NCBI RefSeq assembly: GCF_000422425.1
Contig: NZ_AULT01000011.1
Location: forward strand, 62,001-126,000
DNA from: Oceanospirillum beijerinckii DSM 7166
GTDB lineage: Bacteria; Pseudomonadota; Gammaproteobacteria; Pseudomonadales; Halomonadaceae
Length of the DNA stretch: 64,000 bases
Reading direction: 5' to 3'
The number at the start of each line of letters is the position of its first letter. Position 1 is the first letter of the stretch. This document shows positions 27,010 through 36,531 of this stretch, one piece after another. Under the pieces are notes generated by a model. That model was given only the letters and a program-made list of their open reading frames with translations, made no database searches and had not been told where the DNA came from. The translations under genes were made by a program, and so were the position numbers.

Positions 27010-28278
27010 ATGAGCACTCTACGTATCAATCCTTGGTGGGTTGTCGCTGCAGCAGCAGTTATTCTGGCTTATAACATGGGGATTCGCTTATCAACCAGCT
27101 TGTTAATCCCGACGATTAATCAGGATATCGGTATTCCTCAATCGGAGCTGGCCTTTGGCTTTGCGGTACAAAACCTGATGTGGGGTGCGGTTGCTCCCGT
27201 TGCAGGTTTGATGGCAGAGCGCTACGGCACAGTGAAAGTATTGTTGGCTGGTGCCGTGTTATACGGGCTGGGTCTGGTGATATCTGCTCTGGCAGAAAGC
27301 GGCGGTTTGTTCTTTATGGGTAACGCTATATTTATCGGGGTTGGCGTTGGTGCCAGTACCTTTCCGATTGTGCTCGCGGCAGTTGGTAAACGCTTTCCTG
27401 TTCAGAAGCGCACCCTGGCGTTAGGTGTCGCCAGTGCTGGAGGTTCTCTGGGACAGTTTGGTTATGCTTTTGCGCTGGGGCAGTTAAACCCTATGGTCGG
27501 TTGGTCTGATACCTTGTTGATCTTTTCGGGTACTACCTTGGTCGTATTTGCCCTGGCGGGCCTGCTGAAAGATGAGCCTAAAGGTGAGGGGGGTAAAGAT
27601 GACCAAAGTGAAGGCTCGGCAGGCAATAACCCACCCAGCACAGTGATGGCTGGCAAGCAAAAGCAACCTCTGTTTAATTGGCAGGCCATTGGCGATGCCT
27701 TTAAGGTACGTGACTATCAACTGCTGAATATTGGCTTTTTTGTCTGTGGTTTTCACGTTGCCTTTATCACCGTACATATGGCGGGATTTGTTAACCTGTG
27801 TGGTTTACCGGCCAGTGTGGCGACTAACTCGATTGCTTTGATTGGCCTGGTGAATGTTGTTGGTAGTATTGCAGCGGGCTGGGCGGGGGATCGTTGGCAT
27901 CAACCCTATTTATTGGCGTTGATTTATGGCACCCGAACGCTATTGATTATTCTGTTGATGGTACTGCCCAAGACCTATGAAACCTTTTATATGTTCTCGA
28001 TAGTAATGGGGATGTTATGGCTATCCACCGTGCCACTAACCAGCGGTTGTGTTGCGCATCTGTTTGGCACTAAAAACCTGGCGTCTCTGTTTGGTATTGT
28101 AATGTTTAGCCATCAGATTGGCGCTTTCTTCGGTAGCTGGTGGGGTGGACTCTTGTTTGATTGGTATGGCGATTACAGTTTGGCATTGAGTATGAGTGCA
28201 GGCTTAGGCCTGCTGGCTGCGCTGGTGCACTTGCCGATGACGCCAAAACGTTTCGCTGCAGTAGAAGCCCGCGTTTAA
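27010..28278 (+). CDS. MFS transporter
   Basis: Major facilitator permease of 422 residues with about twelve membrane helices. The cytoplasmic loop between helices 6 and 7 is hydrophilic (residues about 195-215, rich in Gly, Asp and Ser). The helix 2-3 loop reads GLMAERYGTVKVLLAG, matching the MFS GxLaDrxGrkxxL motif. It resembles the OFA/monocarboxylate-type MFS group, so a small organic acid is a possible substrate, but this is weak. The divergent LysR gene is the likely regulator. The ATG at 27010 starts MSTLRINPWW. Confidence 0.9.
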   Translation: MSTLRINPWWVVAAAAVILAYNMGIRLSTSLLIPTINQDIGIPQSELAFGFAVQNLMWGAVAPVAGLMAERYGTVKVLLAGAVLYGLGLVISALAESGGLFFMGNAIFIGVGVGASTFPIVLAAVGKRFPVQKRTLALGVASAGGSLGQFGYAFALGQLNPMVGWSDTLLIFSGTTLVVFALAGLLKDEPKGEGGKDDQSEGSAGNNPPSTVMAGKQKQPLFNWQAIGDAFKVRDYQLLNIGFFVCGFHVAFITVHMAGFVNLCGLPASVATNSIALIGLVNVVGSIAAGWAGDRWHQPYLLALIYGTRTLLIILLMVLPKTYETFYMFSIVMGMLWLSTVPLTSGCVAHLFGTKNLASLFGIVMFSHQIGAFFGSWWGGLLFDWYGDYSLALSMSAGLGLLAALVHLPMTPKRFAAVEARV

Positions 28279-28359
28279 GTCATGACAGAAAGTTGAGTTT
28301 GTGCGATTAGCTGGAAATGTCACAAAATCACAATATTGACTCTATAGTCATGCAATGTG

Positions 28360-28375
28360 ACTACCTTAAGGTAGT
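28360..28375. promoter_or_regulatory. Perfect 16-bp palindrome upstream of the CsrB-like RNA candidate
   Basis: ACTACCTTAAGGTAGT is a perfect palindrome about 65-80 bases before the first GGA motif of the RNA candidate. Its position is where GacA/UvrY sites sit upstream of csrB/rsmZ genes, but it does not match the usual TGTAAG-N6-CTTACA. It is probably an operator. Confidence 0.4.
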
Positions 28376-28436
28376 GAGCAAGTTAAGAGCTGCGATTATC
28401 ACGCAATCGCCTTGACGTTACCCTGACTGTGCGCGT

Positions 28437-28640
28437 TGCAAGGATGATGGATAGGATCTGTTATGGATGACAGATGGGGGAAGGAATCCTAAAAAGGACA
28501 TGTAGATAGGAATCGATAGGGATATTCAGGAACATAGGGAAGAGCTGACAGGACGTCGGGTGGAATGGATGATCTGAAGGATGGGCACAAGCCCCAGGAT
28601 ACTGCTTGAGGCCAAAGGAGTTGGCCTAACTACTGGTTCA
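28437..28640 (+). ncRNA. GGA-rich CsrB/RsmZ-like regulatory RNA candidate
   Basis: Within 28441-28620 there are 17 GGA triplets, mostly in AGGA or UGGA contexts, the hallmark of RNAs that sequester CsrA/RsmA. Three hairpins present GGA in their loops: ATCTGT-TATGGATG-ACAGAT (28456-28475), CTGAC-AGGAC-GTCGG (28545-28559) and AGGCCAA-AGGAG-TTGGCCT (28609-28627). A further stem GGGC-ACAA-GCCC lies at 28583-28594. There is no open reading frame of note. No U-run terminator follows on the plus strand. The 5' end and 3' end are therefore estimates, and the IS256 remnant downstream may have removed the terminator. Confidence 0.6.
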
Positions 28641-28718
28641 ACTGTTAAATCCAGAGTCATAAGATAAAACCGTGTAACAGGCTATCACTGAGTCCGCAAT
28701 GGCCAAGGATAGGCTGAT

Positions 28719-28990
28719 ATGAATAAGCAACAACTTGAAGCACTCGCACGCGAAGCTGCTAAATCGACCGAAACGACTTTCGGCAAATGCTCAAAAAGTC
28801 ACTGTTGAAACGGCTCTCAATGCTTAACTGGGTGATCGCCTGGGATACGAGAGGCATAGCAGAAACACTTCATCTAACTCCCGCACTGATTAATCCAGCA
28901 AGACTATCTGTACTGAGAATGGACAGATAGAGATCAATACTCCTCGGGATCGTAAAGAGGGTTTTGAGCTTCAACTGGTCAAGAAGAGAC
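28719..28990 (+). pseudogene. Decayed IS256-family (mutator type) transposase, N-terminal fragment
   Basis: Reads MNKQQLEALAREAAKS from an ATG at 28719. After a frame change it reads KVTVETALNA, a stop, LGDRLGYERHSRNTSSNSR, and then, after another shift, ENGQIEINTPRDRKEGFELQ and LVKK. This order matches the first ~100 residues of IS256-family transposases (EQLEALAREAAK, TVETALNAEL-HLGYE, NTPRDR). At least two frameshifts and an internal stop make it inactive. The DDE catalytic part is absent. The terminal inverted repeats were not recognised, so the element's limits are unknown; the left end may lie near 28630-28660. Confidence 0.88.
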
Positions 28991-29235
28991 TATCCTTAAT
29001 AGAGGCCGGTGATTACCGAAAGGATCTCCCTAAGGTAGATTGGTTTGAGTTATATGGTGTTAATCCAATTACTATCCTGCTGATTTCACTTTTGTTCAAG
29101 GGATTTTGCGATAGTTTTTTACCCCGTGATCTAAGCTTTGATCCAGCGCTGGTTTTATTGTGCTTTAAATGGTCATATCACTGACACCCTGATATAACAT
29201 GAGTATGAGCATTAATCTGAAAGTGAGACTTTTCT
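28991..29235. other. Intergenic, no gene seen
   Basis: AT-rich stretch between the transposase remnant and the DgcZ-like gene. Nothing in it resembles further IS256 sequence in any frame that I could follow. Confidence 0.4.
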
Positions 29236-30222
29236 ATGCTTGAGCACCTCTTGGAAAGTATTGATCAGCAGGACTTTGAAACCCTGTCTGAGGATATTAA
29301 GCGGTCATTGGGGGAGCACAGGAAGTGGATGAACAAGATCACGACGGCATTGGTATTACGCCAACCTTTAACTAAGCTGGATTTTGTCGCAGAGGATGCG
29401 CATAAACATTGCCAGTTCGGTCGTTGGATGCAGAAACTGCTAGCTGATCCTATCTTCCAAAAAGGCTCCTTTCTAAAGCTGGAGCAGTACCACGAAGAGC
29501 TGCACGATAGAGCCAGGGTGCTGATCGAGCAGTTGAATCGTGGTGAGAATGTCAGTGAAGATCTGTTCATATCCTTTCTTGAAAGCCGGGATCAGTTTTT
29601 CTATATGGTATTGGAAATTCTGGAGTTCTCGGTAATTAACAAACATCAGTTTGATCCAACCACTAAACTGATGAATCGTCGCAGTGTCGATGCTTTGTTG
29701 GCACACGAAGTGCACCGCATGCAGCGGGATGAAGGCGCAAATACCTGTATTGTCCTAGGGGATATTGATCACTTTAAACGGGTAAATGATACCTATGGTC
29801 ATGATGCAGGGGATCGCATGCTGGAAATGGTGGCCGATGTCTTTCATCAGGCTATCCGGCGCCACGATACTGTATCTCGTTTTGGTGGTGAGGAGTTTCT
29901 GTTTATTTTTCCTGATATGAATCTGGCTGAAACCTGTGAGGTGGTGGAGCGGGTACGTAAAAAGCTGGCCGAAGCGGCGCTGGATTATCAGGGGCAGCAG
30001 ATCAGCGTAACGTCTTCCTTTGGTGTCACTCAGCTATGCCCTCATTGTGAAATTAAAGATTCCATTAAACGGGCAGATATTGCTCTGTATCAGGCTAAAA
30101 GTTCCGGTCGAAACTGCACTGTTTCTATTGATGTTGCGCGTATGATCGCACAAAAAGAGATGAATTTTTCTGAAGAGCAATTAGTTGGTCTCACTGAGCG
30201 TGTATGTAGAAAAATAGGGTGA
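29236..30222 (+). CDS. Diguanylate cyclase with N-terminal zinc-binding CZB domain (DgcZ-like)
   Basis: A 328-residue soluble protein with the two-domain plan of E. coli DgcZ (YdeH). The N-terminal CZB domain has the zinc ligands His28, Cys59 (in HCQFGRW), His86 and His90. Their spacings (31, 27, 4) closely match those I recall for DgcZ. The C-terminal GGDEF domain has GDIDHFKRVNDTYGHDAGD and GGEEF at 217-221, with the inhibitory RxxD (RRHD, 208-211) correctly spaced. It should make c-di-GMP from two GTP, inhibited when zinc is bound. It has no membrane segment. It follows the RNA candidate and IS remnant, so it probably has its own promoter. Confidence 0.95.
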   Translation: MLEHLLESIDQQDFETLSEDIKRSLGEHRKWMNKITTALVLRQPLTKLDFVAEDAHKHCQFGRWMQKLLADPIFQKGSFLKLEQYHEELHDRARVLIEQLNRGENVSEDLFISFLESRDQFFYMVLEILEFSVINKHQFDPTTKLMNRRSVDALLAHEVHRMQRDEGANTCIVLGDIDHFKRVNDTYGHDAGDRMLEMVADVFHQAIRRHDTVSRFGGEEFLFIFPDMNLAETCEVVERVRKKLAEAALDYQGQQISVTSSFGVTQLCPHCEIKDSIKRADIALYQAKSSGRNCTVSIDVARMIAQKEMNFSEEQLVGLTERVCRKIG

Positions 30223-32322: not shown

Positions 32323-32425
32323 GTGTATTAAACCGGAACTTATTTGTTTTCTTACCAAGCCATTTTGCTTTTCCCTTGAGGTTTTGGCGACAGGCTGTTA
32401 CCTGTCATTTGTTAATCTATACTTT

Positions 32426-32501
32426 CCATTCTTCCATTCTTCCATTCTTCCATTCTTCCATTCTTCCATTCTTCCATTCTTCCATTCTTCCATTCTTCCA
32501 T
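32426..32501. repeat. Octanucleotide tandem repeat (CCATTCTT)9
   Basis: Nine perfect copies of CCATTCTT from 32426 to 32497, followed by a partial CCAT. It lies in the 512-base gap between mqo and the CZB chemoreceptor, about 240 bases ahead of the latter's start. Copies are identical, as expected for slipped-strand variation. Since 8 is not a multiple of 3, a frame through the repeat would shift on copy-number change, but no real gene appears to cross it. An effect on promoter spacing is possible. Confidence 0.95.
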
Positions 32502-36305: not shown

Positions 36306-36531
36306 GGCTTGGGTTGTGTTTATGAATCCTCTGCTTTTCTGAGTTAAAACGCGATTCAAAATATTGTAATCTGGTACCTCTGTATTCGGTGTTTACAAAG
36401 ACGCGACAATTATAGGCTTGTTATATTTGATGTGCTGGATTAAAACTTAGTGGGTATAGCATGAAAAGCTACTGATATTGCTGCGTTTACAGGATGTTCA
36501 CATAAGCATCTGTCCTGTCCGAGGTTTGTAC

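Follow-up and report, generated by a model that had tools for sequence, protein, structure and literature searches.

Behind a transporter gene of Oceanospirillum beijerinckii DSM 7166, in the 64,000-nt stretch of contig NZ_AULT01000011.1 analysed here (hereafter the window), lies a segment, positions 28437-28640, that is crowded with the triplet GGA. The question it raises is whether it encodes a small RNA of the CsrB/RsmZ type, i.e. one that titrates CsrA, as a first-pass annotation made from the letters alone had proposed. We consider that the segment is probably the body of a plus-strand, non-coding, CsrA-titrating RNA, a second Csr/Rsm RNA of the genus, apart from the canonical one (probability roughly 0.7). 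The proposal drew support from the GGA density, from GGA triplets predicted to be mostly unpaired, from syntenic homologues with covarying stems and from the presence of CsrA and of a GacA homologue in the same genome; it failed the test with Rfam. Precisely, csrA has one match in the O. beijerinckii genome, and a regulator of the UvrY/SirA/GacA family stands directly before uvrC (298.6 bits, cut-off 280).

The count of 17 GGA given by that annotation was correct: the triplets span 28442 to 28617 and all of them are inside 180 nt from 28438. As a genome sample for densities and hairpin counts we considered 1,264,000 bases, consisting of the window and 60 stretches of 20 kb, on both strands; the canonical RsmZ-type RNA of O. 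beijerinckii falls outside the sampled 20-kb stretches. The segment has the highest GGA density of this sample (17 per 180 nt, against a mean of 2.1 and a standard deviation of 1.5), so that the equal density elsewhere that would have spoken against the annotation was not found in the sample. The runners-up hold 14 and 12 GGA, both in short tandem repeats, and then 11. No open reading frame of at least 70 aa overlaps the segment, in which the annotation had seen no significant one.

The three hairpins with GGA in the loop that had been pointed out (Table 1) are exact in position, and all three are present in the minimum-energy fold. The fold of the segment is more stable than those of its dinucleotide shuffles (-55.7 against -46.1 +/- 3.7). 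The GGA are not predicted to lie mostly in stems: in the predicted ensemble 12 of the 17 are more than 60% unpaired, and their mean unpaired value is 0.72, against 0.61 +/- 0.07 in shuffles, 25 of 500 of which reach it.

Is this arrangement kept in related species? We considered a genus set of six Oceanospirillum genomes, G000 (O. beijerinckii) to G005, in which G002 is very probably O. sediminis D5, and a wider set of 97 genomes. A syntenic candidate RNA stands behind the orthologous transporter gene, of the major facilitator superfamily (MFS), in four of the six (the window, O. sediminis, G004 and G001). In O. sediminis the transporter is followed by the hairpins CTGTTATGGATGACAG and GGGATGGAATCCC and then by a strong terminator; its local alignment with the window agrees almost throughout over 32 columns (score 48, against at most 28 in shuffles). 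In G004 and G001 the syntenic site holds two GGA-loop hairpins, with a T-run behind the second one. The form found in the three relatives is short, with two GGA-loop hairpins and a terminator-like 3' end, and the window has about 100 GGA-rich nt more. In G003 the transporter is present and an RNA match is absent, and in G005 the best transporter match is 40% identical, also with no RNA match. On the two strands of the 1.264 Mb, five sites combine a GGA-loop hairpin followed by a T-run with another GGA-loop hairpin at most 60 nt upstream.

We built a model, R2, from all four syntenic sequences, and its recovery of those four is hence circular; over the 97 genomes it matched them at E 1.7e-12 or better, and two others weakly (G007 and G094, E 0.02). 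For an independent test we derived another model, R3, from just two sequences, those of the window and of O. sediminis. Searched against 66 sources totalling 1.29 Mb, R3 recovered only one additional site, the syntenic one in G004, in the correct orientation and with E = 3.3e-4. For covariation we used an alignment of the four sequences made without structure. Four of nine pairs changed on both sides and 97.2% of the cells pair, whereas slid versions of the alignment gave at most 44.4% pairing and no two-sided change. Shuffles of the alignment never reached the observed paired percentage or covariation score (0 of 500 for both), and reached the number of two-sided cells in 2 of 500. Within these four sequences, the stems covary while the loops keep GGA in all four.

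The segment had also been suspected of being a truncated or chimaeric copy; the genus has a canonical RNA elsewhere. A strict GacA-box pattern gave five sites in four of the six genus genomes, and one of these, in G003, led to a GGA-rich RNA beside fdxA, which scores 21.1 bits with the Rfam model PrrB_RsmZ (cut-off 44). The fdxA-adjacent RNA was also found in G001, G004 and G002, so that this linkage holds in four of the six genomes; the order fdxA-rsmZ is known from Pseudomonas (PMC4353343), and a ferredoxin-linked CsrR2 from Alcanivorax (PMC9788540). With boundaries chosen by us, these RNAs contain 16 GGA in 215 nt (G001), 16 in 217 nt (G004), 10 in 191 nt (G003) and 27 in 386 nt (G002). A model of their 3' half, R1, for which four of the six genus genomes were used, matches all six at E 1.6e-13 or better, and weakly matches 12 of the 91 genomes outside the genus (E 0.001 to 0.06). 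In O. beijerinckii the R1 match is G000:C4:191904-192030 (locus L147, with homologues in L135, L136, L137, L140 and L148); around it there are 26 GGA in about 390 nt, a terminator and, 160-180 nt upstream of the putative start, a GacA-type box. This distance is comparable to that in E. coli, where the inverted repeat bound by UvrY in front of csrB has its centre at -183/-182 (PMC4682653). Boxes of the form TGTARG-N6-CYTACA are upstream of the RNA in all six genomes, and, judging by these matches and boxes, a canonical RNA of the RsmZ/CsrB type, preceded by a GacA-type box, is common to all six.

The fdxA linkage is not visible in O. beijerinckii because fdxA (L138, G000:C27:1-526) and the canonical RNA (end of G000:C4) sit at the ends of different contigs; an insertion or an assembly break is possible. 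Paired nearby R1 matches were also seen in G004 (L137, G004:C22:86015-86159 and 86715-86856) and in G005 (L148, G005:C35:36218-36333 and 36372-36496), and could be tandem copies or internal duplications of the canonical RNA.

In the window, R1 gave no match at E up to 10. A derivation of the window RNA from the canonical RNA of its own genome was tried and rejected, since the local score was 21 against a shuffled mean of 20, and 79 of 200 shuffles reached it. By these comparisons the window RNA is not homologous to the canonical RNA of the genus. The two are alike in GGA density, but the canonical RNA differs in sequence and possesses both a GacA-type box and a strong terminator. As read from the sequence, the window RNA is probably functional, or was so recently, lineage-specific and additional to the canonical RNA.

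The window RNA is not a copy of the canonical RNA. The suspected truncation may be partly correct: the T-run that ends the RNA in the relatives is absent here and IS256-type DNA is near. The IS256 remnant that had been noticed behind the segment was recovered, with similarity to a putative left end starting at about 28662 (a piece of G004 aligns over 26 columns), that is about 35 nt past the last hairpin; the transposase of the related insertion sequence (IS) copy in G004 belongs to PF00872, the Mutator family. Because the IS similarity starts only there, we rejected an IS origin of the GGA part. The 3' end of the window RNA is, from its sequence features, probably damaged or unusual.

Several results weigh against a CsrA-titrating RNA at this place. 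No Rfam family reached its cut-off in the window, nor in five loci, and the best Csr/Rsm-type match of the window was RsmY (RF00195) at 28494-28574, with 13.1 bits (E = 1; the gathering score is 57), so that the covariance-model check proposed in the first-pass annotation turned out negative. The models PrrB_RsmZ and CsrB had no match in the O. beijerinckii genome; in the genus, the CsrB model gave seven sub-threshold places in four of the six genomes, and of the three regions inspected two had the look of coding sequence and terminators, the third being the GGA-containing stretch of G003:C12 described below. Dinucleotide shuffles of the segment hold 11.7 +/- 2.1 GGA on average, so much of the GGA signal is G/A-rich composition, and 17 was reached in 4 of 500. 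The number of GGA-loop hairpins is in itself not unusual, because 200-nt stretches elsewhere in the sample hold three or four of them (46 and 6 starting points, respectively). The short motif GTTATGGATGAC is likewise uninformative alone, being present in 33 of the 97 genomes, while synteny together with clustered GGA was seen only at the window and O. sediminis among the loci scanned.

Upstream, no GacA/UvrY box (TGTAAG-N6-CTTACA) was found near the window RNA at up to three mismatches; the best box-like site in 28000-28440 has four, which 84 of 300 random stretches equalled or bettered. Sigma-70-like sites in front of the RNA were no commoner than in shuffles, and a search of 28250-29240 for a terminator-like site came up empty, in agreement with the annotation. 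As regards the relatives, simple local alignment of the window, whether with G004 or with G001, scored no higher than shuffles, and the R3 run over 66 sources missed the G001 site, which with filters off was the second best of four transporter loci (13.9 bits, E = 0.054). Shuffled alignments reached the count of two-sided pairs in 45 of 500 and the pair types in 261 of 500, the exposure of the GGA of O. sediminis does not exceed that of shuffles (equalled or bettered by 169 of 500), and in G004 a terminator-like site between transporter and RNA speaks against a simple 3' untranslated region (UTR) there.

These points can be read in three other ways. The missing terminator, which three relatives have, and the IS256-type DNA from about 28662 would fit a decayed Csr RNA gene, whose terminator was taken by the insertion or by another change, leaving a pseudogene or a section of some long, unstable transcript produced by read-through; we regard this as unlikely, given that the extreme GGA density is intact over the whole segment and that the conserved domain, with 59.0 bits, scores as high as its O. 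sediminis counterpart, with 59.6 bits. A different function is conceivable if the GGA sites are a regulatory part of the transporter mRNA, through which CsrA, bound in the 3' UTR, would control the stability of that mRNA without any titration. The synteny with the transporter in four genomes and the lack of a terminator-like site from gene to RNA in the window and in G001 are compatible with such an element, but 17 sites are many for a single target and G004 has its terminator-like site in between, and we hold it to be quite improbable. That there is no RNA gene at all, only G/A-rich intergenic DNA next to IS debris, would explain much of the GGA excess by composition; it is contradicted by the synteny, the covariation, the independent R3 match, the start of the IS similarity only at about 28662 and the rarity of 17 GGA in shuffles, and appears very improbable.

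If the segment is a CsrA-titrating RNA, several CsrA dimers would dock at its exposed GGA, both in the loops and in the unpaired linkers, and an abundant RNA would free CsrA from its mRNA targets. The RNA may be made with the 3' UTR of the transporter, or processed from it, as for RsmW; its own promoter is the alternative. Co-transcription fits because no terminator-like site lies between gene and RNA in the window and in G001, and an own promoter would fit because the stretch just upstream of the RNA is partly conserved with O. sediminis. The nearest precedent, by analogy, is this RsmW of Pseudomonas aeruginosa, which comes from the 3' UTR of PA4570, is not activated by GacA and binds RsmA in vitro (PMC4950607). 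As it is described there, RsmW is, like the window RNA, GGA-rich and directly behind an ORF with no predicted terminator between, and its independence of GacA has a parallel in the absence of a GacA box at the window RNA. It differs in having 7 GGA instead of 17, in its unrelated neighbour (PA4570 instead of an MFS transporter) and in that its binding of RsmA was demonstrated, whereas binding of CsrA is here a prediction.

A further, doubtful possibility is that a CsrA sponge arose within the 3' UTR of the mRNA for a transporter of the monocarboxylate type and grew in one lineage, by added GGA units, from a 3' end with two hairpins into a CsrB-type titrator with 17 sites. In that case CsrA would be released by the very expression of the transporter, tying substrate uptake to the carbon-storage regulator without GacS/GacA, and steps in the birth of a Csr RNA would be visible side by side. 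Such origins are otherwise hidden because Csr RNAs are usually without sequence conservation (PMC11882849). In Oceanospirillum, related species carry what appears to be one RNA at a shared locus, in a short and in a long form, and have an intact canonical RNA as well; a single marine genus could thus serve to study both the gain of binding sites and GacA independence.

The coexistence of several unequal Csr RNAs in a marine bacterium has a precedent in Pseudoalteromonas fuliginea, which has three, with 25, 21 and 9 GGA (PMC11882849). Alcanivorax dieselolei, a marine relative, also has two CsrA-related RNAs, CsrR1 and CsrR2, one ferredoxin-linked and one UTR-derived (PMC9788540); in the description given there, unlike in Oceanospirillum, they are not at a transporter locus. 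For Vibrio fischeri, 3'-UTR-derived RsmA-binding RNAs have been predicted, in an article whose main text does not contain "Oceanospiril" (PMC5568370). In the literature collection searched we found no paper on Csr RNAs of Oceanospirillum.

Table 1. Features of the window at and around the GGA-rich segment.
Feature	Position	Strand	Basis
GGA-rich body of putative CsrA-titrating RNA, 17 GGA	28437-28640	+	counts, genome-wide density, shuffles
Conserved 5' domain, two GGA-loop hairpins, common to the syntenic RNAs of three relatives	28438-28491	+	alignment, models
Hairpin 1, GGA in loop, stem covarying among relatives	28456-28475	+	hairpin search, alignment
Hairpin with AGGAC loop, in the part without counterpart in relatives	28545-28559	+	hairpin search, alignment
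Last hairpin, AGGAG loop, no T-run behind	28609-28627	+	hairpin and terminator searches
Degenerate IS256-type element	28662-29020	+	left end aligned; right end (about 29020) by our reading
Upstream stretch with partial conservation in O. sediminis; candidate promoter or 5' portion of the RNA	28377-28436	+	comparison
Perfect 16-nt palindrome, not conserved in sister species	28360-28375		palindrome count, comparison
Weak sigma-70-like site	28319-28348	+	promoter search
MFS transporter gene, orthologous in RNA-carrying relatives	27010-28278	+	sequence comparison, profile search
LysR-type regulator, divergent to the MFS transporter	25859-26854		gene order

The transporter upstream of the RNA is nearest to the lactate, oxalate/formate and monocarboxylate families, under every NCBIfam cut-off, and has close relatives in O. 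sediminis D5 and O. maris. The palindrome between transporter and RNA exists as reported, but the control-site role suggested for it did not stand, as it is one of three perfect 16-nt palindromes in the window (about one expected by our estimate) and is absent from the sister species; it is probably due to chance.

Other GGA-rich or repeated stretches were seen during these searches. An intergenic stretch of O. beijerinckii on the minus strand (L111:5680-5850, G000:C3) has 8 GGA in 100 nt and a TTTCTG-AGGATTA-CAGAAA hairpin, with no R1 match, and in G003 a GGA-containing intergenic stretch (L055:1500-1670, G003:C12) is followed by a hairpin and a T-run and has a weak match to the CsrB model (E = 0.15); both are possible further Csr-type RNAs. 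The 8-bp repeat GGAGGCTG, or its shift, runs at L068:17310-17410, L111:16760-16850 and L097:10100-10165, among the GGA-densest stretches of O. beijerinckii. Finally, a perfect 8-bp tandem repeat, TTCCATTC, occupies 32424-32501 of the window (9.8 copies), close to where a chemoreceptor-like gene begins, and is possibly a phase- or length-variable tract.
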